Assembly: GCA_020634495.1 (NCBI GenBank)
Contig: JACKBR010000051.1
Coordinates: forward strand, 1 to 33,011
Direction: 5' to 3'
Length of the DNA: 33,011 bases
From: Ardenticatenaceae bacterium
GTDB lineage: Bacteria > Chloroflexota > Anaerolineae > Promineifilales > Promineifilaceae
Below are positions 1 to 32,465 of the stretch, one piece after another. Position numbers and translations under genes: made by a program. How positions within the stretch are numbered: position 1 is the first letter of the stretch; every line of letters begins with the position of its first letter. The notes beneath the pieces are model-generated. The model was not told where the DNA came from. It saw only the letters and a list, made by a program, of their open reading frames with translations, and ran no database searches.

Positions 1-1801
1 ACAGTACATGCACATTCCGCGCATCCACGTTTCTTCTATTGAAACGTGCGGCATGGTGGCCAACTACCAGCCTGCCATGAGCAAAATGCAAATTTACATG
101 ACGACTCAAGCGCCCCACGCCATTCGCACCGTTTTTGCCCTGGTGACTGGCCTGCCAGAGCAGAAAATTCAAATCATCTCCCCGGACATTGGCGGGGGAT
201 TTGGCGGCAAGGTGCCGGTTTATCCTGGCTATGTGATTGGGGCCGTGGCCAGCCTGCTGCTGGGCAAGCCGGTCAAGTGGATTGAAGATCGCAGCGAGAA
301 TTTGCAGGCAGACAGCTTTGCCCGCGATTATCACCTGGAGGCAGAGCTGGCGGCCGATGCCAATGGCAAGCTTGTTGGGCTGCGCGTCAATGGCCTGGCC
401 GATCACGGCTGTGCCGATGCGGCGGCCAACCCCTCTAAATTCCCGGCCGGGCTGTTTAGCATTTGTACCGGCTCTTACGATTTACAGGCGGCGCACGTGA
501 ACATGGATGCCGTCTACACCAACAAGCCGCCGGGGGGCGTGGCCTACCGCTGCTCGTTCCGCGTCACGGAAGCGGTGCAGATGATTGAGCGCCTGACGGA
601 CATGATGGCCCATGACCTGAACGTTGATCCGGCCGAATACCGCATGAACAACTTCATCAAGCACGACGCCTTTCCCTACAAGTCGCCCACCGGCTGGGAG
701 TACGACAGCGGCAACTACCACGCGGCGCTGCAAAAGGCGATGGATATCCTTGATTATGAAGGATTGCGCAAAGAGCAGGCGGAAAAGCGCGCCCGCGGTG
801 AGCTGATGGGCATCGGCATTTCCAGCTTCACGGAAGTTGTAGGGGCTGGCCCGTCTCGCGATTACGACATTTTGGGCATCAAGATGTTTGATTCGGCCGA
901 AATTCGCATTCATCCCACGGGTAAGGCGATTGCCCGCTTTGGCACCAAGAGCCAGGGGCAAGGCCACGAAACCACCTACGCCCAAATCATCGCCGAAGAG
1001 CTGGGCTTGCCAGCCAACGACATCGAAGTGGAGGAAGGCGACACGGATACCGCTCCGTACGGTTTGGGCACGTACGCTAGCCGCTCCACGCCAACGGCCG
1101 GGGCTGCTGCCGCGATGGCTGCCCGCAAGATCAAGGCCAAGGCGCGTAAGATTGCCGCCCATCTGCTGGAAGTGGGTGAAGACGACCTGGAATGGAACGT
1201 GAACCAGTGGCAGGTAAAAGGCTCGCCGGAACAGGCGAAGACGATTCAGGACATTGCCTTTGCTGCCTACACCAACCATCCTCAGGGCATGGAAGCCGGT
1301 CTGGAGGCGACGGATTACTACGACCCGCCCAACCTGACGTTCCCGTTTGGCAGCTACATAGCTGTGGTGGACATTGACAAGGGCACGGGCGAGGTTCACG
1401 TGCGCCGCTTTGTGGCCATCGATGATTGTGGCAACATCATCAATCCGCTGGTGGTGGAAGGGCAGGTGCATGGTGGTCTGACGATGGGGCTGGCTCCGGC
1501 GCTGTTTGAGGAGATTGTGTACGACGAGAATGGTACGTGCTTGACCGGGACGTTTGCGGATTATTTGCTGCCAACGGCCGTTGAGTCACCAAAGTGGGAA
1601 ACCGGCCACACCATTACCCCGTCGCCGCACCATCCCATTGGGGCCAAAGGGGTAGGCGAGTCGCCTACCGTGGGCGCGCCTCCGGCCATTGCCAATGCGG
1701 TGGTGGATGCGCTGTGGCATTTGGGCGTGCGCCACATCGACATTCCCATTACGCCGCAAAAAGTGTGGCAGGCGCTGCGCGATGCGGGCGTGAGCGATTA
1801 G
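1..1801 (+). CDS. coxL: Form I aerobic CO dehydrogenase large subunit (5' partial)
   Basis: Molybdenum-copper CO dehydrogenase large subunit, which oxidises CO to CO2 at a Mo-S-Cu centre and passes electrons to the CoxS/CoxM subunits. The frame is open to the window edge, so the N-terminal part is missing; about 599 residues remain. Counting from the ATG at 8, the motif AYRCSFR lies at residues 179-185 with Cys182. This is the signature of form I (true CO-oxidising) CoxL; form II has AYRGAGR. 415 residues follow the Cys, close to the 421 after Cys388 in the Oligotropha enzyme. The glycine-rich IGGGFGGK segment (61-68) and the C-terminal GVGES segment containing the expected catalytic Glu are present. 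Upstream coxM/coxS would lie outside the window. A CoxI-like maturation gene lies 1.1 kb downstream. High confidence in the family and form; activity is inferred. Confidence 0.93.
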   Translation, partial: QYMHIPRIHVSSIETCGMVANYQPAMSKMQIYMTTQAPHAIRTVFALVTGLPEQKIQIISPDIGGGFGGKVPVYPGYVIGAVASLLLGKPVKWIEDRSENLQADSFARDYHLEAELAADANGKLVGLRVNGLADHGCADAAANPSKFPAGLFSICTGSYDLQAAHVNMDAVYTNKPPGGVAYRCSFRVTEAVQMIERLTDMMAHDLNVDPAEYRMNNFIKHDAFPYKSPTGWEYDSGNYHAALQKAMDILDYEGLRKEQAEKRARGELMGIGISSFTEVVGAGPSRDYDILGIKMFDSAEIRIHPTGKAIARFGTKSQGQGHETTYAQIIAEELGLPANDIEVEEGDTDTAPYGLGTYASRSTPTAGAAAAMAARKIKAKARKIAAHLLEVGEDDLEWNVNQWQVKGSPEQAKTIQDIAFAAYTNHPQGMEAGLEATDYYDPPNLTFPFGSYIAVVDIDKGTGEVHVRRFVAIDDCGNIINPLVVEGQVHGGLTMGLAPALFEEIVYDENGTCLTGTFADYLLPTAVESPKWETGHTITPSPHHPIGAKGVGESPTVGAPPAIANAVVDALWHLGVRHIDIPITPQKVWQALRDAGVSD

Positions 1802-1818
1802 CCTGTGTGTTTTGAGAA

Positions 1819-1852
1819 AATGGGTAATCGAGCATGTGCTTGATTACCCATT
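1819..1852 (+). terminator. Hairpin after coxL, possible terminator
   Basis: An 11-bp perfect stem (AATGGGTAATC at 1819-1829 pairing with GATTACCCATT at 1842-1852), with further inner pairing, begins 17 bases after the coxL stop. The following AATTTC is only weakly T-rich, so this may be a factor-assisted terminator or a simple RNA 3' stabiliser. Confidence 0.55.
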
Positions 1853-1894
1853 AATTTCAGTTGACTTAATCCGTCAGAGACGTACAATTTATTC

Positions 1895-2209
1895 ATGTTC
1901 ACCTTCATCGAATCTTCTATTTTTGCCAAATATTTGTCTGATTATTTGAGTGATGATGAATATGCTAACCTCCAAAATTTCCTCATTGCTAACCCGGAAG
2001 TGGGAAGAATTGTTCCTGGTTCCGGCGGCGTGCGGAAAATGCGGTGGCACACAAGAGGGCGTGGTAAAAGTGGTGGGATTCGCGTAATTTATTATTTGCA
2101 ATCCCGCAAAGGTGAGATCTGGCTTTTGACTATCTATGGGAAAAGTGCAAAAGAGAACATTCCAGGACACATCTTAAAGCGGTTGAAGGAGGCTTTTGAA
2201 AATGAATGA
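1895..2209 (+). CDS. RelE/HigB-type toxin of a type II toxin-antitoxin pair
   Basis: A 104-residue basic protein with the layout of the RelE/HigB mRNA interferase fold. N-terminal helices carry FAKYLSDYLSDDEYANLQ, the middle has a GGVRKMRW strand and GIRVIYYL, and the C-terminal strand is EIWLLTIYGKSAKENI. Such toxins cleave mRNA at the ribosome and are neutralised by the protein from the next gene. The downstream Xre-type gene overlaps its 3' end by 8 bases, the classic toxin-first (higBA-like) order. No strong Shine-Dalgarno precedes the ATG. Base composition is more AT-rich than coxL and the segment lacks the ACGGCCGT octamer, consistent with recent acquisition. Family call is from pattern; cleavage activity is inferred. 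Confidence 0.85.
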   Translation: MFTFIESSIFAKYLSDYLSDDEYANLQNFLIANPEVGRIVPGSGGVRKMRWHTRGRGKSGGIRVIYYLQSRKGEIWLLTIYGKSAKENIPGHILKRLKEAFENE

Positions 2210-2899: not shown

Positions 2900-3910
2900 A
2901 TGAATGGCGATTTTTTTGCAAAGGCGCATGAATTGGTTCAGGCGGGGGAGCTGTTTGCAACGGCCGTTGTGGTGCGCGCCGAAAAGCCAACCTCAGCCAA
3001 GCCGGGGGACAAGGCAATCATCACGGCCGATTCGGTGATGCACGGCTGGATTGGCGGCAGCTGCGCCCAGCCGACGGTGATCAAAGAGGCGCTCAAGGCG
3101 ATTGCCGACGGGCAGCCGCGCCTGATTCGCCTGACGGTTGACCCGGAACAGGAACCGTCCCGGCCCGGATTGGTTGATTTGCCAATGACTTGCTTTAGCG
3201 GCGGCACGTTGGAGATTTACATTGAACCGCAACGGCCGTTGCCCCATTTGCTCGTGGTGGGCAGCCTGCCGGTGGCGCGGGCGTTGGTGCAGCTGGGTAC
3301 GGCGATGAGCTATCGCGTGACGGTGGTAGACCCGGACACGAACGGTGAGGGCATGGAAAAAGCGGATCGCCTCATCACCAATCTGGACGAATTGGCGGGT
3401 TTGCTGACGCCGCGCACCTTTGTGGTGGTGGCCACGCACGGCAATTACGATGAGCTGGCGTTGAAATATGCATTGAAAGCGCCGGTCGCCTATGTGGGAC
3501 TGGTCGCTAGCAAAAAGCGGCGGCAGGCGGTTGAAGAATATCTGAGGCTGCAAGGATTGACCGACCACGAACTTGAGCGGCTGGTTTGCCCGGCCGGGCT
3601 GGATATTCAAGCGGTGCGGGGCGATGAAATTGCCCTGAGCATCATGGCCCAGATTGTGCAGCTGCGGCGCAACGAGCCGGAAATTGACATCGATGCCTTT
3701 TTTGTGCAGTCAGAATCGGGAACGGCCGTTGACCCCATTTGCCAGATGGATGTGGAGATTGCCACAGCCAAGTTCATGTCGGAATACAATGGCGAGATGT
3801 ATTATTTCTGCTGTGCGGGCTGCAAACAAACCTTTGATAAAAATCCAATGGCGGCATTGGTGAAACAGTCGGAAACGGCCGTTTCCCTCGACGACATCAA
3901 CATTACCTGA
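2900..3910 (+). CDS. CoxI/XdhC-family maturation factor fused to a YHS domain
   Basis: Members of the XdhC/CoxI family insert or sulfurate the molybdenum cofactor of xanthine dehydrogenase-type enzymes, including CO dehydrogenase. The N-terminal XdhC_CoxI domain (about 5-75) has the GWIGGSCAQP motif at 49-58 with the conserved Cys. A Rossmann-type XdhC C-terminal domain (about 115-260) contains LLVVGSLPVARAL and VATHGNYDE. Residues about 276-320 form a YHS-type metal-binding domain with DPICQMDV and a CCAGC cluster. The ATG is preceded by AGGAGAG about ten bases upstream. With coxL just upstream this is most likely its dedicated maturation factor. The YHS fusion could bind copper for the Mo-Cu site, but that is speculation. 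336 residues, intact. Confidence 0.88.
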   Translation: MNGDFFAKAHELVQAGELFATAVVVRAEKPTSAKPGDKAIITADSVMHGWIGGSCAQPTVIKEALKAIADGQPRLIRLTVDPEQEPSRPGLVDLPMTCFSGGTLEIYIEPQRPLPHLLVVGSLPVARALVQLGTAMSYRVTVVDPDTNGEGMEKADRLITNLDELAGLLTPRTFVVVATHGNYDELALKYALKAPVAYVGLVASKKRRQAVEEYLRLQGLTDHELERLVCPAGLDIQAVRGDEIALSIMAQIVQLRRNEPEIDIDAFFVQSESGTAVDPICQMDVEIATAKFMSEYNGEMYYFCCAGCKQTFDKNPMAALVKQSETAVSLDDINIT

Positions 3911-4111: not shown

Positions 4112-5521
4112 TTAAGCAAAGGCCATTTCGGATTGGGGTGGGGTGGCAACGGCCGTTTCTCGTTCCACCAGCCGCATTTGGATGCCATCCGCAGGGGTAA
4201 GCGTAATTTGGGCTTTGTACTGCACCGGGTGGTCTTGGGCCAGCTCCAGGCGGAAGCGCTGGGCAATGGCGGCCAGGATGAGTTGGGCTTCCATCATGGC
4301 AAAGGCGTTGCCGATGCAAACCCGCGTGCCGCCGCCAAAAGGCATGTAAGCGTACTTTGGCAGCGATTTTTCAAACTCTGCTGTAAATCGCTCCGGCTTG
4401 AATGCTTCTGGTTCGTCAAAATATTGCGGCAGATGGTGCATCACGAAGGGCGAGATGAAAATGGTGCTGCCTTTGGGTATCGTGTAGCCACCAATCTCCG
4501 TATCTTCCAGAGCCGTACGGCCGTTCAAAATCCAGGCCGGTGGGTAAAGCCGCATCGACTCTTTGATGATTTGCAGGCTGTAGGGCAGGTTGGGCAAATC
4601 GGCCAGCGTCGGTTGGCGACCGGCTAACACGCTGGCCAGTTCCTCATGCAGTTTCGCTTCTACGTCGGGATGCTGCGCCAGCAGATGCCAAGTCCAGCTC
4701 AGGGCATTGGAGGTGGTTTCATGCCCGGCGGCAAACAGCGTGGCAACCTCGTCGCGCAGCTGCTTGTCGTCCATAAATTCGCCGTCTTCATCCACCGAGA
4801 GCATGAGCATGGAGAGCAAATCGCCCGTGTCGGTGATCTGGCCGTTTACGGCCGTTTCTCGTCGTTCCGCAATGATTTGGTCCATCACCTTGTTGAACTC
4901 CCTGGCGGCCTGGTTGCGCAGACGGTTATCGGCCGTGGGAATCCAGTTGGGCAGCGAGAAGCCCCGCTGGTAATCTCGGTTGGAGACGGCCTGGAAATCG
5001 TGCATGGCGCTGCTGATGGTAACGGCCGTATCCCCCGATCCCGTAATCCCATCCGCGTCAAACAGCGTTTTGGAGACAATGAGCATCGTCAAATGCATCA
5101 TTTCGTGAGTAACATCGACCACTTTGTCATCTTGCCACGCGGCCATAATTTGATTCGCATAATCAACCATCACTTCGGCGTAATTTTGGATGCGCTTGCT
5201 GTGGAAGGCAGGCTGGGCCAGCCGTCGCTGCCGCTTGTGGAAAGCGCCGTCGCTGGTGAGCAGGCCATTGCCCAGGAACTTGCCCAAAATTTGTTTGTCT
5301 AGCGGCGCTTTTTCAAATTTGTCGCTTTGCGTCACCAGCACCTCGCGAATCAAATCGGGATGTCCTAGCAAATAGGTGTGGAAGTGCGCCAGCCGAAAGT
5401 AGACCAGATCGCCGTACTGCTTGACGCTTTCCAGCAGAAATTTGGGTTCGTCTTCACTAAATTGGTTGATACTGCCTAATAGAAAGTTGCCCTGAGGGCC
5501 AGACGGCCGTTTAACTGACAT
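4112..5521 (-). CDS. Cytochrome P450
   Basis: 469-residue soluble bacterial P450 without an N-terminal membrane anchor. The I-helix oxygen-activating motif AGHETTS is at 265-271, the K-helix ExxR (ESMR) at 321-324, PERF at 376-379, and the heme-binding loop FGGGTRVCIG at 395-404 with the axial Cys402. The length and long C-terminal half resemble CYP102/CYP4-like bacterial monooxygenases. No ferredoxin or reductase gene is adjacent, so the electron donor is unknown. AAGGAG precedes the start by about eleven bases. It is divergent from a TetR-type gene across a 169-base region, suggesting local control. The substrate cannot be told from sequence; a fatty acid or other hydrophobic compound is a guess. 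Confidence 0.93.
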   Translation of the reverse strand: MSVKRPSGPQGNFLLGSINQFSEDEPKFLLESVKQYGDLVYFRLAHFHTYLLGHPDLIREVLVTQSDKFEKAPLDKQILGKFLGNGLLTSDGAFHKRQRRLAQPAFHSKRIQNYAEVMVDYANQIMAAWQDDKVVDVTHEMMHLTMLIVSKTLFDADGITGSGDTAVTISSAMHDFQAVSNRDYQRGFSLPNWIPTADNRLRNQAAREFNKVMDQIIAERRETAVNGQITDTGDLLSMLMLSVDEDGEFMDDKQLRDEVATLFAAGHETTSNALSWTWHLLAQHPDVEAKLHEELASVLAGRQPTLADLPNLPYSLQIIKESMRLYPPAWILNGRTALEDTEIGGYTIPKGSTIFISPFVMHHLPQYFDEPEAFKPERFTAEFEKSLPKYAYMPFGGGTRVCIGNAFAMMEAQLILAAIAQRFRLELAQDHPVQYKAQITLTPADGIQMRLVERETAVATPPQSEMAFA

Positions 5522-7306: not shown

Positions 7307-8301
7307 CTCGGTTCTCCTGTTTCAATATCAACCCAGCAGGCCGCTTTATGCCCGGCGGCAACCGGGGCCAATGGCGGCATTTCCTGGCGACAGTGGTCTA
7401 TCACATAATCGCAGCGGGGGGCAAACGGGCAGCCACGCGGCGCAATGAGCAGATTGGGGGGCGCACCGGGAATTGATTTCAGTCGTTTTTCACGCCGCTG
7501 ATCAACGCGAGGCAAGGCAGCCAGCAGGGCTAGCGTGTATGGATGCTGCGGCCGTTCGTATAAATCATCGACAATGGCTTCTTCCACTATGTAGCCAGCG
7601 TACATCACAATTACCCGGTCGGCCATACCTGCCACAACACCCAGGTCATGGGTGATCCAGATCATGGCCATGCCCATTTTTTCACGCATACGGATCACCA
7701 GATCGACAATTTGGGCCTGGATGGTGACGTCCAGCGCGGTGGTTGGTTCGTCGGCGATGAGCAGGCTGGGGTTACAGGCCAGCATCATGGCAATCATGAC
7801 GCGCTGACGCATACCGCCAGAAAATTGGTGCGGGTAATCGCCAAGGCGTCGGGCCGCATCGGGGATGCCGACCAGCTCTAGCAGTTCAACAGCTCGTTTA
7901 CGGGCCTGTTCTTGCTCCATGCCGTAATGCTTGTGCAGGGCTTCGGTAAGCTGCCGTTCAATGCTTAAAACGGGGTTGAGCGAGGTCATGGGGTCCTGAA
8001 AGATCATGCCAATTTCGCTGCCGCGCAGCTGCTCAAGGGCATCTTCGGGCAACTGTAGCAGGTCGCGATCCAGCCAGAGGGCACGGCCGTTTACAATTTT
8101 GCCCGGTGGAATGGGAATCAACCCCAAAATGGACATCATGCTGACCGACTTGCCGCAGCCGCTCTCACCAACCACAGCCACAGCCTCTCCTTCTTTGATG
8201 TGGTAGGAGATGCCGTTGACGGCATGAACTGTTCCCTCTGGCGTATTAAATTGCACCTGAAGGTTTTCAACTTCAAGAATTGTGTGCTTGGTTGGGTTCA
8301 T
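7303..8301 (-). CDS. Dpp/Opp-type ABC importer ATPase, DppD-like
   Basis: 332-residue ATPase, partner of the following DppF-like subunit. Walker A GESGCGKS at 45-52, signature SGGMRQRV at 161-168, Walker B LLIADEP at 180-186, and a C-terminal oligo_HPY region with CPFAPRC. The open frame continues upstream through the intergenic repeat and into the permease gene. The ATG at 8301 is the start because family homology begins there ([15 protein letters not shown]). It follows the DppC-like gene by about 75 bases, which hold a palindromic repeat. Confidence 0.92.
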
Positions 8302-8317
8302 GAAGCTTCCATTTTGT

Positions 8318-8373: not shown

Positions 8374-8375
8374 TA

Positions 8376-9329
8376 TTAAACCGCCCGACTGTGTGGGTCG
8401 AGCGCGTCTCGTAGACCGTCGCCGACAAAATTGATGCTGAGGACGGTCAACACGATTAACAAACCGGGAAAAATCCACAGCCAGGGGGCCGATTCGATAT
8501 AGTTGTAAGAGCCATCGAGCATGTTGCCCCAGGTGGCGGTTGGCGGCTGTACGCCAAGCCCCAAAAAGCTGATGTACGCTTCGGAGAGAATGGCGTTGGC
8601 CACTCCCAGTGTTGCCGACACCACGATGGGGGCGATGCTGTTGGGCAGGATGTGCTTGAAAATAATTTCCCAATTGGGCGTGCCAATGGCTTTGGCAGCC
8701 AGAATAAATTCGTTTTCCTTGACGGAGAGGAATTCGGCGCGAACGATGCGGGCCAGGTACATCCAGCTTGTCAGGCCGATAATGAGAATAATGACGATGA
8801 CGCTGCCGCTAAAGGTGCGGCCTAACACGGTGACATCGGGGATGGAGCCGCCAAAAAATTTAGCCATCACGATCAGCAGAAAAAGCTGGGGAATGTTTAG
8901 CGCAGCTTCGGTGAAGCGCATCAGGAATGCGTCGATTTTGCCGCCGTAGTAGCCAGCAATTGCGCCAACGAGTACCCCGATGGCTGTTTCTAGAATAACG
9001 GCCGTTAACCCAATCAACAATGAAATCTGACCGCCATAAATGGTGCGAATTAAAATATCGCGGCCTACCGTATCTGTGCCAAATGGATGTTCGGCCGTTG
9101 GCCCAGTCAGGCGAAGGCTCGTGTCGGTAAAATTAGCGTCTGCTTCGCTGTAAACCAGTGCGCCACCAAAGGCGTACACAAAGAGCAAAACAATAACAAC
9201 AGCGCCAACCAACGCCATTTTATGACGACGAAAGCGTCGCCAGGTCATTTGCCACAGGGTTAATGGCGGGGCTTCCAGAACATCGGCACCCAGGTTGAGG
9301 GTTGCCACAGAAGGATCGACAGAACTCAT
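8376..9329 (-). CDS. Dpp/Opp-type ABC permease, DppC-like
   Basis: 317-residue membrane permease. The OppC_N-type cytoplasmic lead (WRRFRRHKMALVGAVVIVLL) gives the first transmembrane helix at about 37-58, followed by about five more helices. The coupling loop with the EAA-type motif is around AAKAIGTPNWEIIFKHILPN, and ISFLGLGVQPPTATWG near the C-terminus is typical of DppC. It partners with the DppB-like protein encoded 11 bases upstream. Confidence 0.93.
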   Translation of the reverse strand: MSSVDPSVATLNLGADVLEAPPLTLWQMTWRRFRRHKMALVGAVVIVLLFVYAFGGALVYSEADANFTDTSLRLTGPTAEHPFGTDTVGRDILIRTIYGGQISLLIGLTAVILETAIGVLVGAIAGYYGGKIDAFLMRFTEAALNIPQLFLLIVMAKFFGGSIPDVTVLGRTFSGSVIVIILIIGLTSWMYLARIVRAEFLSVKENEFILAAKAIGTPNWEIIFKHILPNSIAPIVVSATLGVANAILSEAYISFLGLGVQPPTATWGNMLDGSYNYIESAPWLWIFPGLLIVLTVLSINFVGDGLRDALDPHSRAV

Positions 9330-9340
9330 AAGGCAACCTC

Positions 9341-10375
9341 TTAGTCGTACCGGATGCGTGGGTCTAACCAGGCATAGGTAATATCGGTCAAAATTTGAAA
9401 GATGATGACAACCAGTGATAAAAGCATCAGGATGCCCATGACCACGGGCACATCGTTGCGGGACACATGATCCAGGAAAAGACGCCCCATGCCTGGCCAG
9501 GCGAAGATGCGTTCGGTCACCACAGCGCCGCCCAGCAAGAAGGGAATGTCCAGGCCAATGACGGTGACAATGGGCAGGGACGCATTTTTAAGCGCATGAA
9601 CCAAAATGATCGTACGCCCTTTTAATCCTTTGGCTTTGGCGGTGCGAATATAATCCTGATTCATGACTTCTAGCATGGTGCTGCGAATGTATCGGCTGTA
9701 AGCGGCCGTACTGATAACGGCAATGCTCACCACTGGCAAAATTAAATGCAGCAGTACCTGCCCGGTTGTTTTGCCAACTTTGGGATCAAACATGCCCACG
9801 GCGGGCAGAGAGGGCAATCCCCAGCGCTGGAAGTTGACGGAAAAGATGTAGATCGAAAGCAGGGCAATGAAGAAGATGGGCATCGAGTAACCAATGAAGG
9901 AAACGGCCGTTATCGTGTGATCAAACAACGAATATTGTCGCAGCGCCGAATACACCCCAATAAACAAGGCCAACACCACAATGACCACTTCCGAAGCCAC
10001 CATCAAGATGAGCGTATTGGGCACCCTGTCCCAGATGACCTCCAAAACCGGCTTGCCCCGGTTTACAAGAGACGTGCCAAAATCGCCGCGCAGCACACCC
10101 AAACGATGCCCCGGCGTTTCGGCAACGCCATCACCGTCCACGTCAAACGTAGACCAATCGTTCCCCGCCAGCCAATACACATATTGCAGGTAAATCGGTT
10201 TATCCAGGCCCAGCTGGCGGGTTAACCGCTCCCGGTCATCGGGCCGGGTTGCCCGGCGACCACCCATCGTGGCCAATGGATCGCCCATGTTCTGCATCAG
10301 CGTAAAAAGCACCACGCTAATAATGAACAGCAAGGGAATGGCTTGCAGCAGCCGGCGAATGATATATCGACTCAT
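9341..10375 (-). CDS. Dpp/Opp-type ABC permease, DppB-like
   Basis: 344-residue permease beginning MSRYIIRRLLQAIPLLFIISVV, the usual DppB/OppB start. It has six predicted transmembrane helices and the cytoplasmic coupling loop YIRTAKAKGLKGRTIILVHALKN. A periplasmic insert after helix 1 (about 40-100) includes a GLDKPIYLQYVYWL segment common to the family. It lies between the substrate-binding protein gene and the DppC-like gene. Confidence 0.93.
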   Translation of the reverse strand: MSRYIIRRLLQAIPLLFIISVVLFTLMQNMGDPLATMGGRRATRPDDRERLTRQLGLDKPIYLQYVYWLAGNDWSTFDVDGDGVAETPGHRLGVLRGDFGTSLVNRGKPVLEVIWDRVPNTLILMVASEVVIVVLALFIGVYSALRQYSLFDHTITAVSFIGYSMPIFFIALLSIYIFSVNFQRWGLPSLPAVGMFDPKVGKTTGQVLLHLILPVVSIAVISTAAYSRYIRSTMLEVMNQDYIRTAKAKGLKGRTIILVHALKNASLPIVTVIGLDIPFLLGGAVVTERIFAWPGMGRLFLDHVSRNDVPVVMGILMLLSLVVIIFQILTDITYAWLDPRIRYD

Positions 10376-20431: not shown

Positions 20432-20500
20432 TTAACACTGTTTTTTTATGTAACGGCCGTATACAGGCTAATATGTAAAAGCGGGAAAAACCCATACCAA

Positions 20501-21478: not shown

Positions 21479-21837
21479 TGAAACCAGCCAGATCTGTTTG
21501 TGCTTATCCAGTCTGGTCGTTTGAATAGACACGGCCGTTTTGTGAATCAGCTGTTAGAACGGCCGTATCCCACCAACATTTATACTATGCGTAGGGGCGC
21601 ACCCCCGTGTGCGTCCATTTTGGGGCAGACACGGAGGTCTGCCCCTACCCCGCGAAATCCTAAAAAGCCAAAAATCTGCGAGGGGCCAATATACCTTGCC
21701 ACAAATCGTGCCAAAGCAGCTTTGAATTTGCCCCAATTTTTTGTAAACTGTCTCTGCGCGTTTTCGTTTTTCCTTCACTAATACAGGCTCACAGATGTTA
21801 TGTTTGCTAAAGTTATTTGTTCAAGGCAATCAGTTTC
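21479..21837. other. Gene-free spacer with octamers and a dispersed palindrome
   Basis: The 359 bases hold two ACGGCCGT sites (21531, 21559) and the palindromic element at 21591-21648, then AT-rich DNA without a recognisable gene. No convincing promoter could be picked. Confidence 0.6.
21591..21648. repeat. GTAGGGGC...GCCCCTAC dispersed palindromic element
   Basis: Outer arms GTAGGGGC (21591-21598) and GCCCCTAC (21641-21648) enclose a CGCAC/GTGCG hairpin. A competing 9-bp hairpin, GGGGCAGAC/GTCTGCCCC, lies at 21622-21645. Elements with these arms are, to my knowledge, common between genes in Chloroflexota and cyanobacteria and are thought to be non-autonomous mobile palindromes. Confidence 0.8.
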
Positions 21838-23978: not shown

Positions 23979-23993
23979 CAACGTGAAAACGCA

Positions 23994-25130
23994 TCACTCT
24001 CTTTTTCCCCACAACCCAAACCCCGCCTTGCGCCGGGCTTCGCGACGGCCGTATTGCTCATGAATCTCGTGTACGTGGGCTACCTTTTCGGCAATGCCTG
24101 CTTCCAGCCAGCGACGGCCGTTTTCCACCGTCGCCACACTGCCAGCCCCATACGCCCCCGTCGCCGTGTCGTCGTCCCAGGGCGGGTTGGCGTCAGTTCG
24201 CCTCAATCCAATCCGTATAGTAGCTCGGCGTGCTGATAAAATCGATCTCGTCCACTGCCTTTCCTGGTGCACCAGGTCGGGGCGCAAATGCAAAATCATC
24301 GCTGTTTCCAGCTCGCCCGCGTGCCCCATGCCGCCCGCTTGAGTAGCGGTTTCCTGCACCACCGGCCCAGCGATGTGGCCGGAGGTGTGCAGCCAGGCCG
24401 TGGCGCAAAGATGCGGCAGTGGCGCTCCCGGCATATTTCACCACGTTGACCAAAAAGGAGCAGTTGCCGCCGTGCCCGCTCATCAAATAAAAGCGGTCGA
24501 AGCCGCGCCCCACCAGCCCGTCCACCACCGCCAGCCAGAAATCCTCAAAGGCGCGCCCCTGCACGTTGAGCGTCCCGGCAAACGACTGCCGGTGGGTGCT
24601 CACCCCGTAGGGAAAGGTGGGTAAGGTGACGGCGTGGTCGGGAACGGCCGTACCCACCCCGTTGCCAATCGCCTCAATAATCAAATTATCGGTAGACAGC
24701 GGCAAATGGTAGCCGTGCTGCTCTGTGTGCCCGATGGGAATGACCACCACCTTACCCACGTCGCTGGCCGCTGGCAGCAAAGGCGCAGGCGCGAATTGGC
24801 TCGAATGGGGCAGCACGATAGCCTGATCGTTCAGCCCTAGCGTCATGTCCTGCGGAATCAGGGCAAACACCCGGCTAAAACCATCTTCGCGCAGGCTGTT
24901 GAGCAGATTTTGCAGAACGGCCGTTAACAATCCCTCCGCCACCGCCAACCCACTGCCCCGCCAGCCAAACGGAATGGCGGGCAGCAGCCCCACTGCTCCG
25001 GCTGGCCCAAACAGTCGGCCAGTGTTGCCAAATCATACCCCGTCCCCAGCGGAATGATGAGCGGGGTGGTGCGGGATAATGCGGCCGTTTCTGGCCAGGT
25101 TAGTTCGTCGTATGCAAAAAATTTGGTCAT
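23994..25130 (-). pseudogene. Two-domain creatininase-family protein, broken by frameshifts
   Basis: Joining frames from the ATG at 25130 gives about 379 residues, much longer than the usual 240-270. An N-terminal half (YDELTWPETAALSRTTPLIIPLGTGYDL, later LLNSLREDGFSRVFALIPQD) parallels the second half but lacks metal ligands. The second half has the true site: GHTEQHGYHLPLSTD (Glu, His, Asp), SGHGGN (His) and HAGELETAMIL. Creatininase relatives hydrolyse cyclic amides such as creatinine at a Zn/Mn pair. Frame changes occur near 24985 (GGGG where GGGGG would keep frame), near 24420, near 24265 and near 24200. Family identity survives on both sides of each break, so indel errors are as likely as true decay. 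Confidence 0.82.
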
Positions 25131-25207: not shown

Positions 25208-26739
25208 TTAATCATACAAATTCTGTCCCACCAGCTCCCTTTCCCGTCGGGCTACAAAGTCGTGTAGGGCCTCGGTGATAGCGGGGTCGATGGGGGGCGG
25301 TTCGTACTGTTTGAGCATGGTTTGCCAGATGTGTTGGGCGCGAACGGCCGTATCCAGCCCGCCACCGTTTGTCCAATTTTCATACCCCTGCCGGTCCGCC
25401 AGCGACGACTGGTAAAACGCCGTCTGGAACTGCGCCTGGGTGTGGGCCGTGCCAAAATGATGTCCGCCCGCGCCCACCTCGGCAATCGCATCCAGCGCCA
25501 GACTGGCGTCGTCCACGGCAAACCCGGCCAAAAAGTGGCGGAACATCGCCAGATTTTCCAAATCGATGATGAACTTCTCAAACGAGGCGGTCAGCCCGCC
25601 CTCCAGCCAGCCGACCGAATGCATCAGCAAATTGGTGTGGGCCAGGACGGCGGGCCAGAGGTTCCACATCGTTTCGTAGCTGGCCTGGGCGTCGGGGGAT
25701 TGGGCGTTGGTCAGGCTGCCGCTGCCGCGATAGGGCAGATTGTAGAAGCGAGCCAGTTGGCCGCCTACCAGCAGCGCCCAGGCTCCTTCCGGCGTGCCAA
25801 AAGCGGGACTGCCGCTCTTCAAATCGACGTTGGTGGTAAGCCGCCATAAATCACCGGTGCGCGGGCCGGACGAGCTGCGTCAGGGCAATGCCCGCCAGCG
25901 CCTCAGCGTTTGCTGGGCCAGGGCGGCGGCCATCGTCACCGGGCTCATCGCCCCGGCCAGATGAACAGGTGATGAAGGTCACCTGCCCGGCACGGGCGTA
26001 GGTGAGCAGCCCGCCCAGCATCCGCTCATCAAAGCGCAGCGGACTGTTGACGTTGATCACGTCGCCAATCACCGGGTCGCCCTCCAGCGAGCCAAAAGAC
26101 GATTTCTGGCCATTTTCAGGCAGTCGGCTGGTGATGATACGGCCGTGTGCCGCCTCCATCACTGCTTTGTCCGACAATTCAAACCCGGCTAGCAGCCGGT
26201 GCAGGTGGCGCGTTGGTCCGGAATGTCTTGCGGGGCAACCTGCTCCCAGGCCGCAAAGTGCAGCTGCAGGGCCATCTGGGACAGGCGGACAAAATTTTGG
26301 TAATCGGCAAAAGTGCCGGGGCGACGGCCGTTCACCAAATTTTGCGCGTACACCATGCCACCATTGGGGCCAAAAGCAATGCTGTTTTCGCCGATGAACA
26401 CGTCATGCGCCGGGTTGCGGGCGCGCCAGGTGAAGCTGGGCGGAGCAGTGGCAATCGCCTCCAGCAGCAGCCCGCGATCAATCCAGACGTGTCTGGCAGC
26501 AAAATCCACCTTCGCCCCAGCTTTGGCCCAAATCGACAACACCTCGTCGTCCAGAAAATCTACCCCACGTTTTCTAGAATGTGCAGCGAGGCGTCGTGGA
26601 TTTTTTGGATTTGGTCAGGGGTGAGGATTTCGTACGGCCGTTGCCCATTGCGCACCGTGCCAAATTCCATCTGCAACAGCGGCAGCGCCAACCGCTCAGC
26701 GCGTCGTTCGGCTCGTTTTGCGTTGCGTTGTCGGGTCAT
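25208..26739 (-). pseudogene. MttB-family trimethylamine/betaine methyltransferase, broken by frameshifts
   Basis: Joined frames give about 510 residues of the MttB superfamily, corrinoid-dependent methyltransferases acting on quaternary or tertiary amines. In order: EILTPDQIQKIHDASLHILENVG, VDFLDDEVLSIWAKAGA, AFGPNGGMVYAQNL, TRHLHRLLAGFELSDKAVMEAA, DPVIGDVINVNSPLRFDERML, LAGAMSPVTMAAALAQ, TTNVDLKSGSPAFGTPEGA, SGSLTNAQSPDAQASYETMW and GVGAGGHHFGTAHTQ-like C-terminal blocks. Frame changes lie near 26564 (GGGG where GGGGG would fit), 26200, 25975, 25915, 25870 and 25840. There is no in-frame amber in the block where pyrrolysine sits in true trimethylamine enzymes, so this is the non-pyrrolysine type. 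No corrinoid protein gene is in the window. Start taken as ATG 26739. Confidence 0.82.
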
Positions 26740-26812: not shown

Positions 26813-28684
26813 TCATTTCCTCGGCAGCAAATACCAATCCAGGAACGTTTCCATACGGCCGTAAAAATCCAAAACCGTCTTCTTCAGCAAAAAGCCGTGG
26901 GCTTCTCCGGCGTACGTTTTGTACTCAAACGTCTTGCCCGCCCGGCGCAGCGCCTCTACCCACTCTTCAGAAGATTGCGGCGGCACCACCGTGTCGTCCA
27001 GGCCGTGGGCCACAAAAACCGGCTTTCGCACATTTTCCACCTCGGCAATGGGCGACGCCGCCAGATGCACCGGGCGGTTCGTGGCTGGATGGCCCAAAAA
27101 GATTTCGGTGTACAGCCGCAAATCTCGATTGCACTGCGCCCAGGAGCTAATGATGTTAGCGTCGCCGTACTTGTTCACGCCGCAGGCAAACAAATAATCC
27201 GGGTCGCGGCTGAGGCAGCAGGCGGTCATGTAGCCGCCGTAGCTGCTGCCAAAAATACCAATCCGCTCCCGATCAATCTCGCCAAACTGGTGCAAATAGC
27301 GCGCTCCGGCCAGACAGTCCTGCGTGTCGCCCACGCCCCAATCGTTGTAGTTGGCCTGCTCAAAGGTCACGCCGTAGCCGGTGCTGCCGCGATAGTTGGG
27401 CGCGAGCCAAGTGTACCCTTTGGCCACAAAATATTGGGCCACAATGTCCCAGCCGAAGTTGTACAGCGACGACGGCCCACCGTGCGGATAGACCACGGCC
27501 GCTCCGTTGGATTTTGCTGGACGGTACAAAAAGGCGGGAATTTCCAGTCCGTCGTAGCTTTTGTAGCTCACCAGTTCCGGCACGACGAGGGCGTTGGCGG
27601 CCAAGGCGGGCGGGTTGGAGAAGGTCAATTGCGTGGTACGGCCGTTCCCCACCTCAACCTTGTACAAATCCGGCGGCAGCACCGCATCCTCATACTCCAC
27701 CGTCAAAAATGAGCAATCTGGCGACCAGCGCGGCAAAGCATGAATGCCTTGCCCGCCCCGCAGCGTTTGTACCTGGCCCGATTGGGCATCCAGCAGCGCC
27801 AGCTCATACGCGCCCGCCCGATTGATGCTGCAAGTAATCTGGCTGCCATCGGGCGACCAGGCGAGGTCAGCAAAATCGGCCCCCTCGTGCGACAGCTGGC
27901 GCAGGCCGGAGCCATCCGGCTGCACCAGCCACACCTCATTAAACTCCGGCCGTTGCGAAATGAACGCTATTTGCTGGCCATCGGGCGACCAGATGCCGCC
28001 CCAGTTGCGCAGCTTGGGCGTGTTGGTCAGCTGGCGCACCTGGCCCGTCTCCAGCTCCACCAGCCAGATGTCCAGCCGGTTCATGTCGTCGAAAGGGCGG
28101 TGGGCGAAAAGGAGGAAACGGCCGTCTGGCGAAGGCTTGGCGTTCCAGGCATCACCGGGGGTTTGCACGATTTGGCGGGGCCAACGGCCGTCCCGGTCGG
28201 TGAGCAGCAGCTGCACCTGGTCGTTGCGCTCCACGCTCACCACCAGCTGGTTGCTGTCTGGCAGCCACACCGGGGAGAAGGCGGAACTTGCAAAACTGGT
28301 AATTTTTTGAGGCAAGCCACCAGAAGCTGGCGCGATGTGTACGTGATCCTGCATGGTGAAGGCCAGGAAACGGCCGTCTGGCGACCATTGCGGCACTTCA
28401 TCGGCCCAGTACGCCACCAGCGCTCGCCGGTTAGAAATCCGCTTCGGCCAGCCGCCACTACTCGACATCACGTAAATATCAGATTGGTCTTCGCGATCCC
28501 AGATGAAGGCGATCTGCTGGCCATCAGGGGAGAGTTGATGGTTGCGAATGCGGTTAACGGCCGTTATCAAAGACAAATCCCACCCGTTTGGCGGTTTTAA
28601 ATCCGGCCGTTTGACGGCGGGCCAGCCCTGCCGCTCGTACTTTTCTTGAATCACCTGCCCATCGGGGTTTCGCACCACGCTCAT
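26813..28684 (-). CDS. S9-family peptidase (acylaminoacyl/prolyl oligopeptidase type)
   Basis: 623 residues. Residues about 40-350 form a beta-propeller with repeated SPDG words (LSPDGQQIAF, WSPDGRFLAF, PSPDGRFLLF, WSPDGQQIAF, WSPDGSQITC). The C-terminal alpha/beta hydrolase has the nucleophile elbow GSSYGGY at 479-485 (Ser481), the acid in GLDDTVVP (Asp564) and the base in GEAHGF (His596). These enzymes cleave oligopeptides or N-acylated peptides; there is no signal peptide, so it is cytosolic. Several SPDGRF codons contain the ACGGCCGT octamer. The start sits seven bases after a GGGAGG held inside a hairpin. Confidence 0.94.
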   Translation of the reverse strand: MSVVRNPDGQVIQEKYERQGWPAVKRPDLKPPNGWDLSLITAVNRIRNHQLSPDGQQIAFIWDREDQSDIYVMSSSGGWPKRISNRRALVAYWADEVPQWSPDGRFLAFTMQDHVHIAPASGGLPQKITSFASSAFSPVWLPDSNQLVVSVERNDQVQLLLTDRDGRWPRQIVQTPGDAWNAKPSPDGRFLLFAHRPFDDMNRLDIWLVELETGQVRQLTNTPKLRNWGGIWSPDGQQIAFISQRPEFNEVWLVQPDGSGLRQLSHEGADFADLAWSPDGSQITCSINRAGAYELALLDAQSGQVQTLRGGQGIHALPRWSPDCSFLTVEYEDAVLPPDLYKVEVGNGRTTQLTFSNPPALAANALVVPELVSYKSYDGLEIPAFLYRPAKSNGAAVVYPHGGPSSLYNFGWDIVAQYFVAKGYTWLAPNYRGSTGYGVTFEQANYNDWGVGDTQDCLAGARYLHQFGEIDRERIGIFGSSYGGYMTACCLSRDPDYLFACGVNKYGDANIISSWAQCNRDLRLYTEIFLGHPATNRPVHLAASPIAEVENVRKPVFVAHGLDDTVVPPQSSEEWVEALRRAGKTFEYKTYAGEAHGFLLKKTVLDFYGRMETFLDWYLLPRK

Positions 28685-28760: not shown

Positions 28761-29069
28761 CTAAATTATTTTGCCCTTTCTTGCGTCCAACCAACGCTGC
28801 AACGAACGCTGACTTTCACCTGACCGTCTGCCTAAAATCAGACCCTCGACACTTATATCCTCATCCAAATCAGGCCAATGAATCCCCTCTCCATCTCCAA
28901 TAAACTCCCAGTTTTCACGTTCCGTTTGGCTACCATGAAACAAGCGTGGATACCAGGCAATCGGCACGGAAAGGGAACGGCCGTCTGCCAACTCCACCGT
29001 TAAAGTGTCTTCACTGGTCACAACATTAATACCTTTTACAGTTTGAATCTCAGCTGCCAAAGTATTCAT
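28761..29069 (-). CDS. DUF2442-family protein
   Basis: 102 residues. The DUF2442 core runs from about 14 to 75: DTLTVELADGRSLSVPIAWYPRL, then NWEFIGDGEGIHWPDLDEDISVEGLILG. Family members are found beside DUF4160 proteins in tandem, as here, and the pair has been suggested to behave like a toxin-antitoxin or regulatory module; I cannot confirm this. The start overlaps the 3' end of the DUF4160 gene by 20 bases. Confidence 0.9.
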   Translation of the reverse strand: MNTLAAEIQTVKGINVVTSEDTLTVELADGRSLSVPIAWYPRLFHGSQTERENWEFIGDGEGIHWPDLDEDISVEGLILGRRSGESQRSLQRWLDARKGKII

Positions 29070-29292: not shown

Positions 29293-29414
29293 TTTCTCGT
29301 TCGATGCATTGTAGCACAAGTTAGATTAATTATACGGCCGTCTCCTCTCAGCAGGTAGAAACTGGCAAAAACTACTTGGCGGGGTAGGAACTGGCTATAC
29401 TTTGGACAAAAAGC

Positions 29415-29533: not shown

Positions 29534-31558
29534 ATGAAAATTCGCACCCAATTTCCCCACACCGTCACCATCCTGGAAAACGTCTGGATTCCCCTGGCCG
29601 ATGGCACCCGGCTGGCTGCCAAAATCTGGCTGCCAGACAGCGCTCAGCAGCAGCCCGTTCCCGCCCTGCTGGAATACATCCCCTACCGCAAAAGCGACTA
29701 CACCTCAGGTCGCGATGCCAAGCGGCAGGCGTACTTCGCGGGCTACGGCTACGCCAACGTGCGCGTAGACATGCGCGGCAGCGGCGACTCAGATGGCATC
29801 CTCTACGACGAATATTTGCTGCAGGAGCAGGATGACGCACTGGAAGTGCTGGCCTGGATTGCCGCCCAGCCGTGGTGCGATGGCAACATTGGGATGCATG
29901 GCATCTCCTGGGGCGGCTTCAACAGCCTGCAAGTGGCCGCCCGCCGCCCGCCAGAACTTAAAGCCATCATCGCCATCGGCGCGACCGACGACCGCTACCA
30001 CGACGACGTGCATTACATGGGCGGCTGCCTGCTCACCTCGCAAATGCTGCCCTGGGCCTCACTGATGTTTGCCTACAATCCTTCCCCGCCCGACCCGCGC
30101 TGGGTGGGCGAAAAATGGCGCGAAATGTGGCTGGAGCGATTGGAACAGTCGCCGCCGTACATCGAAAAGTGGCTGGAACACCAGACTCTTGATGCGTACT
30201 GGAAACATGGTTCCGTCCGCGAAAATTATGCCGACATCGAGATTCCGGTTTACATGGTCGGCGGCTGGGCGGACAGCTACAACAACTCGATTCCCCGCCT
30301 GATGGCCGGGCTCAATGTGCCGCGCAAGGCGCTCATCGGGCCGTGGTCCCACGCCTTCCCGGAGCAGTGCGGCACGCCCGGCCCAGCAATTGGTTTTTTG
30401 CAGGAGAGTTTGCGCTGGTGGGATTATTGGCTGAAGGGCATTGACACGGGCATCATGGATGAGCCGATGATCCGCTGCTGGCTGCAAGATGGGGTGCCGC
30501 CTGCACCAAACTACAAGGTGAGAAACGGCCGTTGGCTCACCGAACCGTCCTGGCCCTCCCCCAACATCCAGGAAAAAATCTACTTTTTGAACGAAAACCG
30601 GCTGGATGATGCCCCGCAGCCGATGCAGGAAATCAGCTTTGTGGGGCTGCAAAACCACGGGCTGGATGGCGGTGGCTGGGGCGGACACGGCTCCCCTGGC
30701 GAATCCCCCGGCGACCAGCGCCCCGCCGATGGCGAGAGCCTGACTTTCACCAGCCAGCCGCTGGCCGAACCAATAAACCTGCTGGGCAATGCTGAAGTGC
30801 AATTGACGCTGAAAGTAGACCAGCCACTGGCTTTGGTGGCGGTGCGGCTGTGTGATGTTGACGAAGACGGCCGTTCCACCCTCGTCACCTGGGGCCTGCT
30901 CAACCTCACCCATCGCAACAGCCACGAAAACCCGGAACCGTTGGTGCCGGGGCAGGTTTACACCGTCACCGTGCCGCTAAACGTGATGGCCTACCGGCTG
31001 CCGGCCGGGCATCGCTGGCGGGTGGGCATTTCACCCACTTACCTGCGCCATGCCTGGCCCTCGCCCCAGCCAGTGACGCTGACGCTGTTGCTGGGTAAGG
31101 GCTGCAAGTTGAGTGTGCCGGAACGGCCGTTTCAACCCCACGATGACACGCTACCCGACTTTCCCCCTGCCGAAATTGCTCCCCCAGAACCCATTGAAAC
31201 GCTGCGCCACGAACTGCGCCGCCAAACTGTGACGCGAGAAGCTACGACGGGCACAACTACCTTTACATTGCATCAAGATTCCGGCCGCATTCGCTACAAA
31301 AATCACGGGCTAGAGCTTGATGATATGAGCATCCACACCCTCACCATTCGCGATGACGCGCCACTGTCTCTTGAGCAAACCGTTACTTTCCGATTAGAGT
31401 ACAAGCGCGAGGATTGGCAGGTGGTGATGAAAACCGAGAGCAAGCTAACGGCCGATGCCACCTTCTTTTATCTTTCCAATTTTTTGGAGGCATACGAGGG
31501 CGATGTGCGTGTATTTAGCAAGGCATGGACTAAGCGAGTTGCTCGAAACGGCGTTTAG
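29534..31558 (+). CDS. CocE/NonD-family (S15-type) hydrolase
   Basis: 674 residues. The N-terminal alpha/beta hydrolase has VRVDMRGSGDSDG at 77-89, the nucleophile elbow GISWGG at 123-128 (Ser125), the acid in GGWADSY (Asp247) and the base in GPWSHAFP (His273). A C-terminal jelly-roll domain (from about 400) typical of X-Pro dipeptidyl-peptidase/CocE proteins follows. Relatives hydrolyse X-Pro dipeptides, acylated substrates or esters; the specific substrate is unknown. The ATG at 29534 is chosen because homology begins there and upstream codons fall in the hairpin repeat. No signal peptide. Confidence 0.93.
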   Translation: MKIRTQFPHTVTILENVWIPLADGTRLAAKIWLPDSAQQQPVPALLEYIPYRKSDYTSGRDAKRQAYFAGYGYANVRVDMRGSGDSDGILYDEYLLQEQDDALEVLAWIAAQPWCDGNIGMHGISWGGFNSLQVAARRPPELKAIIAIGATDDRYHDDVHYMGGCLLTSQMLPWASLMFAYNPSPPDPRWVGEKWREMWLERLEQSPPYIEKWLEHQTLDAYWKHGSVRENYADIEIPVYMVGGWADSYNNSIPRLMAGLNVPRKALIGPWSHAFPEQCGTPGPAIGFLQESLRWWDYWLKGIDTGIMDEPMIRCWLQDGVPPAPNYKVRNGRWLTEPSWPSPNIQEKIYFLNENRLDDAPQPMQEISFVGLQNHGLDGGGWGGHGSPGESPGDQRPADGESLTFTSQPLAEPINLLGNAEVQLTLKVDQPLALVAVRLCDVDEDGRSTLVTWGLLNLTHRNSHENPEPLVPGQVYTVTVPLNVMAYRLPAGHRWRVGISPTYLRHAWPSPQPVTLTLLLGKGCKLSVPERPFQPHDDTLPDFPPAEIAPPEPIETLRHELRRQTVTREATTGTTTFTLHQDSGRIRYKNHGLELDDMSIHTLTIRDDAPLSLEQTVTFRLEYKREDWQVVMKTESKLTADATFFYLSNFLEAYEGDVRVFSKAWTKRVARNGV

Positions 31559-31573: not shown

Positions 31574-32065
31574 TCAGGACTTTGTTCGCTGTTCAATGTG
31601 GGACAAAATCAGTTTTATCTCCTGGTCAATTGCAATCGTAATTGCTTCATCAGCGCTCGGTGGCTCCAAAGCATCAAACTGACTTTGCAACATTTCTGCT
31701 TTCATGTAATGGTTTTGCCGTGCTTGCATACGTTCCCAGATCAGCTCAAAGCTCCCCTGCAAGAAGATGAAGCAGGTTTGTTTATTGACTTGAAGCTGCT
31801 CCCGGTATTTTTTCTTCAGGGCAGAGCAGGCAAGTACGGCCGTTTCTCCCCTTTCCACATGACCAGCCAGCAAATCATGCAGCCGCGCCAGCCAGGGGGC
31901 GCGATCATCATCATCGAGCGGCACGCCGCTTGCCATCTTCGCCACATTCTCAGGTGGATGAAAATCATCCCCATCGTAAAATGGACAGTCTAGCTTTTTG
32001 GCCAATGCCATCCCAACCGTCGTTTTGCCACAGCCGGATACCCCCATCACAATATATGCGGTCAT
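31574..32065 (-). CDS. gntK: Gluconokinase
   Basis: 163 residues of the thermoresistant gluconokinase family, phosphorylating D-gluconate to 6-phosphogluconate with ATP. P-loop GVSGCGKTT is at 8-16, then DGDDFHPPENVAKMASGVPLDDDDRAPWL and the ACSALKKKYR segment, all diagnostic. The length fits the family. The ATG at 32065 has AGGGTG five to six bases upstream and matches the usual start. The frame also stays open upstream for 46 codons through a LacI-type HTH remnant to an ATG at 32203, so a fused 209-residue protein is possible. It lies near a sugar-permease remnant, suggesting a former sugar acid operon. Confidence 0.93.
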   Translation of the reverse strand: MTAYIVMGVSGCGKTTVGMALAKKLDCPFYDGDDFHPPENVAKMASGVPLDDDDRAPWLARLHDLLAGHVERGETAVLACSALKKKYREQLQVNKQTCFIFLQGSFELIWERMQARQNHYMKAEMLQSQFDALEPPSADEAITIAIDQEIKLILSHIEQRTKS

Positions 32066-32203
32066 GGTTTCACCCTGATGCTCCTCTAATTTGGTGGACA
32101 CAGATGTTGGTTGTTGGGAACGGCCGTTGAGCAGATTGAAAACGGTACTGGGCAAAACGCCTGCCAATTGAGCCACATCGTTTATCGTTACTTTTTCACT
32201 CAT
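32066..32203 (-). pseudogene. LacI-type HTH fragment in frame with gluconokinase
   Basis: 46 codons starting MSEKVTINDVAQLAGVLPSTVFNLLNGR, clearly the LacI-family DNA-binding headpiece. The canonical Ser residues in the recognition region (GVSxxTVSxxLNG) are Leu and Phe here. It ends about 18 residues after the NGR with no ligand-binding domain and runs without a stop into the gluconokinase. Most likely the stump of a gntR-like repressor gene left by a deletion, or a genuine small HTH-kinase fusion. Confidence 0.75.
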
Positions 32204-32234
32204 TAGACATCCCACAAAGTAAAACTCAAGTTTA

Positions 32235-32253
32235 GTGTAACGTTTTGCCAAAC
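32235..32253. promoter_or_regulatory. Possible LacI-type operator upstream of the HTH fragment
   Basis: GTGTAACGTTTTGCCAAAC has an AACGTT centre and loosely symmetric flanks, as expected of LacI-family operators, about 32 bases before the ATG at 32203. Weak match. Otherwise the 32254-32465 stretch holds one ACGGCCGT site (32422) and no gene. Confidence 0.3.
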
Positions 32254-32465
32254 AAAATAATAGCAGCGAGCTTGCCCGGTGTGCCAAATAATTGGGATTG
32301 AGCCGTGTTGTAGGACAGTTTTTGCCCGATTTTGTTGTCATTTCAGGGTGAAAACTGTTCCGAGGGGAGGTCGCAAAGGGGGGGATCGGTTTAGATGGGT
32401 GGCTGACCTTTATGCCTTTGTACGGCCGTAAAGACGCCAAATGAAATTTTGAGGAGGACGCCAGG

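Follow-up and report, generated by a model that had tools for sequence, protein, structure and literature searches.

An iterated palindromic octamer with a CGGCCG core in Chloroflexota and a candidate methyltransferase

The octamer in the window and in related genomes

The window analysed here is the whole 33,011-base stretch at the start of contig JACKBR010000051.1 (Ardenticatenaceae bacterium, Chloroflexota). It encodes ordinary metabolic and transport genes, and in these genes and in the DNA between them one palindromic octamer, ACGGCCGT, is repeated 48 times without a mismatch between positions 1574 and 32429, a density of 1.45 per kb. The mean of 100 dinucleotide shuffles is 0.48 copies and the largest value in any shuffle is three, which bears out the original prediction of 48 copies against fewer than one expected; Markov models of the window give 0.96 (order 2), 1.65 (order 3) and 4.46 (order 4). 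The runner-up palindromic octamer has six copies. Of the 71 CGGCCG hexamers in the window, 48 sit inside the octamer, and deviations are concentrated at the outer position: 14 copies are spread over the six one-off variants that differ in an outer base, and only two over the 18 that differ in an inner base. A greedy call of open reading frames (ORFs) places 39 octamers within ORFs and nine outside, and a hand list of 24 ORFs places 36 within and 12 outside. The copies within ORFs are divided 17, 16 and 6 among the reading frames, and the ORFs lie on both strands, as had been described from the sequence at the outset.

One protein of the window is 88 per cent identical to a protein encoded by PABI01000175.1 (Anaerolineaceae bacterium NAT123, genome G001). 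In the 8.1 Mb of this nearest relative there are 11,907 copies of ACGGCCGT, compared with 403 of the same letters reversed, so the enrichment is not confined to the contig. A 349-kb sample of G001 has 496 copies against 22 expected (order 3). The flanks in this sample extend the palindrome, with A at position −1 in 56 per cent of copies, G at −4 in 54 per cent and G at −3 in 47 per cent. Outer variants with G and T are enriched and those with C are not (C is rare at the outer position in G001), and inner variants are mostly at or below expectation.

The first protein search led to 80 loci. Four of these, from Chloroflexota, are rich in ACGGCCGT (11 to 46 copies), and a fifth has 27 copies of GCGGCCGC instead in its 14.6 kb; in none of the remaining 75 does ACGGCCGT exceed three copies. 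The survey was extended to 396 genomes drawn from the class of G001, in which a genome with at least 0.5 ACGGCCGT per kb was called strong. There are 20 strong genomes, at 0.51–2.10 per kb; the next below is G162 at 0.42. The count in the relative's whole genome, together with the low counts across most of the class, rules out an artefact, a mobile repeat or local enrichment of the contig. Enrichment of the core was scored as the ratio of CGGCCG to the reversed control GCCGGC (at least 2.5, with at least 1 CGGCCG per kb), a cut-off picked after the counts had been seen, and it selects 26 genomes of the class. In an RpoB tree of 27 genomes, 22 genomes in which the core is a highly iterated palindrome (HIP) form a single clade (support 100/100). 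The core-enriched genome G233 is the sister of this clade and the four genomes without core HIP are placed outside it; G011 is represented in the tree by only 29 per cent of the columns, and no RpoB was obtained from three of the 30 assemblies (G001, G005 and G388). Since the 22 genomes fall in one clade, the HIP is most simply ancestral there, with replacement of the outer base within the clade. Overall, we are all but certain that the octamer is a HIP with a clade-wide distribution in Chloroflexota (Anaerolineae).

The CGGCCG core, already pointed out in the original prediction, proved common to the whole clade, and the outer pair is mostly A/T. In the sample of G003, GCGGCCGC accounts for 104 of the 116 occurrences of NCGGCCGN, and in that of G106 TCGGCCGA accounts for 112 of 136. 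Mixed outer bases surround the core in samples of G162, G009, G289 and G047. G162 has 21,019 CGGCCG in 4.1 Mb against 132 GCCGGC, and G358 has 19,809 against 1835; in G358, 3 per cent of the cores are ACGGCCGT, the one outer variant read. GCCGGC is also nearly absent from G003 (51 in 8.0 Mb), which suggests, for G003 and G162, avoidance of another restriction site. The flanks of ACGGCCGT samples have G at −3 and −4, except in G144, and A at −1 in five of six. Spacing between octamers is near-exponential (coefficient of variation 1.05–1.17); a deficit of gaps shorter than 50 bp seen in G001 was not repeated in other HIP genomes. Locus L004 (G004) is mildly iterated for two other words, GGCCGGCC (eight copies) and CCGGCCGG (seven copies) in 22 kb.

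The sites keep their positions. When the window is aligned with a relative (locus L001; 85.2 per cent identity over 7899 bases), 17 of 19 octamers are kept, compared with 119 of 260 control 8-mers matched for GC and CpG content. In two genome pairs at 74 per cent DNA identity, 14 of 20 and 13 of 22 octamers are kept, where the controls give 15 of 289 and 30 of 344. Further pairs point in the same direction (21/25, 15/18, 17/18, 24/27, 10/11, 6/7 and 1/1 octamers kept), the pairs sharing genomes and region and hence not being independent; two more pairs failed to align. The octamer sites are held by selection or by strongly directed repair.

Some viral contigs are also dense in the octamer. A scan with a 14-base extended palindrome yielded 94 viral loci, several from the same contig, and 37 of these have at least four ACGGCCGT and at least 0.7 per kb. 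The densest locus has 49 copies in 13.2 kb (3.7 per kb; expected copies 0.96 at order 2 and 3.2 at order 3), and the densest contigs exceed every host genome counted (maximum 2.10 per kb). Selection of the loci by one copy cannot explain dozens of copies per locus. Six loci on IMG/VR contigs (L378, L448, L375, L415, L420 and L438) have 1.9–3.7 per kb, and 20 ORFs from six of the dense loci were scanned: L448 (3.0 per kb) encodes terminase and portal proteins and L415, on the same contig, a DnaB-type helicase; L420 encodes a head morphogenesis protein, and L378 endolysin-like and FtsK-like proteins. Given this density, the pressure behind the octamer extends to the viruses that presumably infect these cells, or else those viruses copy it. 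The contig of L448 encodes its own DNA methyltransferase (phrog_67), whose similarity to the host candidate described below is local only (45 residues, E 3e-4).

A candidate methyltransferase and the nuclease beside it

Searches with PF00145, PF01555, PF02086 and DndC found no enzyme common to all the HIP genomes searched. The 5-methylcytosine (m5C) methylase family PF00145 was rejected as the common enzyme, nine of 21 ACGGCCGT genomes having no match. Canonical N6/N4 methylases (PF01555) were likewise rejected, with only weak matches in G001, G368 and G011. The Dam-type D12 family (PF02086) is frequent, but falls into several unrelated subgroups and is absent from G378 and G009; the D12 tree omits the G144 row and eight loci in which no ORF was recognised, and it contains some misread fragments. 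G009 has no match to PF00145, PF01555 or PF02086, yet its core is iterated. G162 encodes a HaeIII-like m5C methylase (L328:1429-2715; also L238 and L239), and in a sample of this genome 105 of 124 GGCC are CGGCCG.

The weak PF01555 matches in G001 turned out to be pieces of one protein of about 670 residues, and one of those in G368 is the same protein; the second match in G368 we take to be an RNA methylase, and that in G011 presumably belongs to another methylase. This candidate methyltransferase, reached through the permuted PF01555 matches, has paired CxxC motifs and a DPPY motif, and it matches PF01555 at 4e-14. Of the 20 strong genomes 18 have an orthologue, as do 31 of the remaining 376 genomes of the class; G139, G142 and G218 (short fragments with at least 52 per cent identity) were not counted as carriers. 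In a tree of the 49 rows the HIP rows lie inside a 32-row clade, and in the 17-row outer clade no CGGCCG-type HIP was found in the samples read (four of them shorter than 7 kb). An AlphaFold model of a homologue (predicted local distance difference test score, pLDDT, 79.9) gave part-length matches to methyltransferase folds: the first is CcrM and the fourth an N4-cytosine methylase, among other methylases. Single-sequence searches of the PDB with the candidate or the nucleases described below returned nothing useful. The candidate resembles the DUF1156-type DNA methylases (NF042963), matching model positions 571–684 of 960 at 5e-20, and differs from them in scoring far below the model cut-off (71 of 1000 bits), in being shorter and in having another partner gene. 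On the DPPY motif, and because the core contains no adenine, this amino-type candidate is most likely an N4-cytosine methylase.

NotI cuts GCGGCCGC, the octamer iterated in G003. In that genome the methyltransferase gene is adjoined by a gene for a NotI-family nuclease (PF12183, 5.5e-11). In searches with a model of this nuclease (pLDDT 90.3), NotI (3c25 and 3bvq) was the sole PDB match under E 0.001 (1.7e-10, TM 0.70), and a profile of nuclease homologues also matched only NotI, weakly (E 0.0093). The region directly beside the methyltransferase was then scored with our own profile, built from 13 genes. Of the 49 rows 37 are readable; G188, G298, G180, G361, G327, G164, G002, G383, G397, G321, G223 and G001 were dropped for short or cut flanks. 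There are 13 rows with an intact nuclease (two with an octamer HIP), four with a broken one (none with a HIP) and 20 in which none was found (12 with a HIP); the comparison of intact with none found gives a Fisher p of 0.015, kinship being ignored. Seen from the octamer, no nuclease was found in these flanks in 12 of the 14 readable HIP genomes, and the 23 readable relatives without an octamer HIP include 11 with an intact and four with a broken nuclease. Six of the 13 intact nucleases were checked by Pfam, and all six match PF12183 (5e-7 to 4e-58).

In one seven-row subclade the ratio of CGGCCG to GCCGGC is 0.36, 0.43 and 0.55 where the nuclease is present (the last value from G188, where it is partly seen at a contig end), 1.0 and 1.29 where it is broken, and 1.75 and 1.66 where none was found (the last from G327, with its upstream flank cut). 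The broken nucleases are frameshifted, split or remnants, at L207:11365-12245 (G203), L225 (G209), L214 (G281) and L218 (G071), and the methyltransferase near them is open along most of its length.

One HIP subclade has 12 rows, and in seven of them (G003, G106, G307, G378, G223, G383 and G005) a NurA-type gene lies directly downstream of the methyltransferase. The loci are L213:9578-10780, L233:7902-9098, L255:12078-13283, L248, L259, L261 and L253, with gaps of 9 to 240 bp. Three of the calls were made by Pfam and the rest by similarity; the match is weak and cut in G383, and the gene in L253 is cut by the contig end.

The presence of the methyltransferase was also compared with the state of the outer base. 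Among core genomes whose flanks were read or in which ACGGCCGT dominates, the iterated word is octamer-specific in 20 of 21 with the methyltransferase and in one of four without (Fisher p 0.007, a post hoc test that ignores kinship). The value is 0.0016 if G358, dropped for its unread flanks, is counted as loose, and 0.014 if G011, from outside the class draw, is included. A split of this kind would follow if the outer base were set by the enzyme.

Possible origin and maintenance of the octamer

We propose, at slightly better than even confidence, that the maker of the mark is a methyltransferase of NotI origin that was orphaned and whose target, NCGGCCGN, was retained and multiplied. The amino-type methyltransferase would have begun as the modification half of a NotI-type restriction–modification system. 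With the nuclease gone from beside it, as it appears to be in the majority of HIP genomes whose flanks can be read, the marked site would be harmless; it may then have accumulated and been held in place, either through a use that the cell makes of the mark, labelling a strand or its own DNA for repair or replication, or through repair biased toward the site. A shift in the outer-base specificity of the enzyme would replace the octamer genome-wide, giving ACGGCCGT, GCGGCCGC or TCGGCCGA, and loss of the enzyme would tend to loosen the outer base to the bare core. The suggestion that the octamer may be a methylation target, one of several in the original prediction, has gained support from the clade-wide putative methyltransferase and its link to NotI-family nucleases, the modification itself being our inference.

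A number of observations weigh against this proposal. The enzyme was not found in the octamer genomes G144 and G011 (in G011 by PF01555 searches only), nor in the core genomes G289, G162, G009 and G358; assembly gaps are a possible cause, because RpoB was missed in three of 30 assemblies searched. In G106, the TCGGCCGA genome, the methyltransferase is encoded by two overlapping frames (L233:9107-11102), owing to either a sequencing error or a recent break. G003 and G253 have both the adjoining nuclease and the HIP, so loss of the nuclease is not necessary for a HIP, and it is not sufficient either, since in G370, G220 and G076, in the outer clade, neither a nuclease beside the methyltransferase nor a HIP was found. 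Avoidance of the site in genomes with the nuclease is not clear: G042, with an intact one, has five ACGGCCGT against 15 expected, but 50 GCGGCCGC against 58. G006 has no ACGGCCGT against 4.4 expected and 79 CGGCCG against 203, with many other palindromes equally low. G171 and G091 have intact nucleases and yet CGGCCG/GCCGGC ratios above 2; in the G091 sample CGGCCG itself is below expectation. The upstream neighbours of all four plasmid homologues that were read match no Pfam family. The likeness to NotI was established for the nuclease. The test of octamer against core drops to p 0.05 when the loose group is widened to take in four weaker core carriers, and shared ancestry could be the source of the co-occurrences of enzyme, nuclease and HIP.

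Other explanations must be weighed against the orphaned methyltransferase. An abundant dimeric protein that serves the nucleoid, segregation or repair might bind the octamer, with selection for coverage of the genome and with the methyltransferase as a mere marker of the lineage. The strong conservation of positions, the flanks that extend the palindrome, the persistence of the core where the enzyme was not found and the density in viral contigs all fit such a protein; we nevertheless think it unlikely, because no candidate protein was identified, the spacing is near random and the NotI-family link to exactly the CGGCCG core would have to be a coincidence. It is decidedly improbable that the octamer is a mutational epiphenomenon, in which methylation-directed mismatch repair ratchets the genome toward the methylated site with no selected function, as in the GmeC-dependent process proposed by Elhai for HIP1 of cyanobacteria (Elhai 2015, PMC4390886). 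Cyanobacterial HIP densities of about 0.5–2.5 per kb and deviations at the outer position, as given in that paper, agree with the 0.5–2.1 per kb and the deviations found here. With GC already in the core, however, nothing in the model as written calls for a fixed outer pair; the pair is fixed all the same, and relatives differ in it. Moreover, in eight of nine genomes with a low share of ACGGCCGT the density of CGGCCG exceeds 2.5 per kb, which is higher than most of the densities that Elhai gives.

A signal for DNA uptake in natural transformation, enriched by biased uptake, would account for genome-wide iteration with a conserved extension, but the octamer is palindromic and dense in viral contigs, which makes this highly improbable. 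The Streptomyces site of the phosphorothioate (Dnd) system has a GGCC core. This match of the core is all that speaks for a Dnd target, DndC having been found above cut-off in three of 35 genomes searched, and we give the idea a negligible chance.

Within the proposal of an orphaned methyltransferase, we favour a mark of self or of the strand over mutation bias alone, for two reasons: the outer pair is fixed even though GC is already present in the core, and the octamer also occurs in viral contigs. One form that a self mark might take is that of a palindromic Chi whose reading depends on modification: a nuclease or repair machine of the host would recognise the modified octamer as self, and both chromosomes and successful phages would need a high density of it. 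The NurA-type gene downstream in seven of 12 subclade rows and the viral density of up to 3.7 per kb led us to this idea, which we regard as quite unlikely.

The description of the octamer as HIP1-like, with another sequence, is supported: it is a GC-rich palindrome, genome-wide in relatives at 0.5–2.1 per kb, in all frames, with outer-base deviations and conserved positions. HIP1 and the alternate HIPs of cyanobacteria (PMC4390886) are likewise GC-rich palindromic octamers at about one per kb genome-wide, in all frames, with palindromic flank extensions, outer-base deviations, alternate palindromes in relatives and an association with orphan methyltransferases. The octamer of the window is not HIP1 proper (GCGATCGC, cyanobacterial), which has no copy in 22 kb of the nearest relative, a member of the Chloroflexota. 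The core is CGATCG in cyanobacteria and CGGCCG here, the phylum is another, and here several octamers share one core within one clade. The enzyme of HIP1 is an m5C CGATCG methylase, whereas the candidate here is amino-type and NotI-linked, with no m5C methylase common to the clade; unlike HIP1, the present octamer is dense in some viral contigs. With the NotI restriction–modification system (PF12183; PDB 3bvq, 3c25) the carriers of the methyltransferase share, in 13 of 37 readable rows, a nuclease homologue adjoining it and, in G003, a homologue that is NotI-folded in the model and a HIP that is the NotI site. It differs in that no nuclease was found beside the methyltransferase in most readable octamer-HIP genomes and in that most HIP octamers have other outer bases.

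Search listings of the open-licence literature showed no earlier description of this octamer as a HIP, nor of any HIP in Chloroflexota; a text search found no GGCC in the main text of PMC12772301. HIP1 has no agreed function, and with a second HIP system in another phylum the question can be approached by comparison. The material for comparison includes a shared core, several outer-base variants, a methyltransferase with or without a nuclease, and viral contigs that bear the octamer. If the NotI link is true, it would show in concrete terms how a selfish restriction system could give rise to a DNA mark across the whole genome.

Individual sites in the window

The sites are assigned below to the ORFs of the hand list; a site is kept when the same octamer stands at the aligned position in L001. 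All are copies of ACGGCCGT. The first lies at 1574..1581, in a molybdopterin-binding dehydrogenase ORF. Four are in the XdhC ORF (2960..2967, 3232..3239, 3722..3729 and 3875..3882) and five in the P450 ORF (4149..4156, 4517..4524, 4848..4855, 5022..5029 and 5503..5510). The oligopeptide transporter genes at 6290-12227 are sparsely occupied, with three octamers in about 6 kb against about nine expected at the mean density of the window: 8083..8090 in the OppD-like, 8998..9005 in the OppC-like and 9903..9910 in the OppB-like ORF.

The DAO oxidoreductase ORF contains 13223..13230, and the two sites that follow, 13593..13600 and 13624..13631, are outside the listed ORFs. Single sites occur in ORF 13663-14154 (14096..14103), the DinB-like ORF (14495..14502), the Imm5-like ORF (14862..14869) and ORF 16395-17111 (16683..16690). 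An ABC transporter ORF has three (19728..19735, 19910..19917 and 20256..20263), and 20453..20460, 21531..21538 and 21559..21566 are again outside listed ORFs.

In the part aligned with L001, the sites 24045..24052 and 24114..24121, outside listed ORFs, are both kept. In the creatininase ORF 24644..24651 is kept and 24917..24924 is not; 25344..25351, in ORF 25208-25822, is kept, as are 26139..26146, 26324..26331 and 26634..26641 outside listed ORFs. The S9 peptidase ORF has six sites, of which 26855..26862, 27638..27645, 28118..28125, 28184..28191 and 28370..28377 are kept and 28557..28564 is not. The two sites outside listed ORFs at 28977..28984 and 29334..29341 are kept, and so are the three in the S15 peptidase ORF (30525..30532, 30867..30874 and 31123..31130). 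The last three sites, 31836..31843, 32120..32127 and 32422..32429, are in ORF 31574-32509.

The stretch from 21567 to 24044 is without the octamer and overlaps a block of low GC content (41 per cent, 21001-24000). It includes an ORF encoding 556 residues (21817-23487), whose product has no Pfam match, and it is probably acquired DNA.

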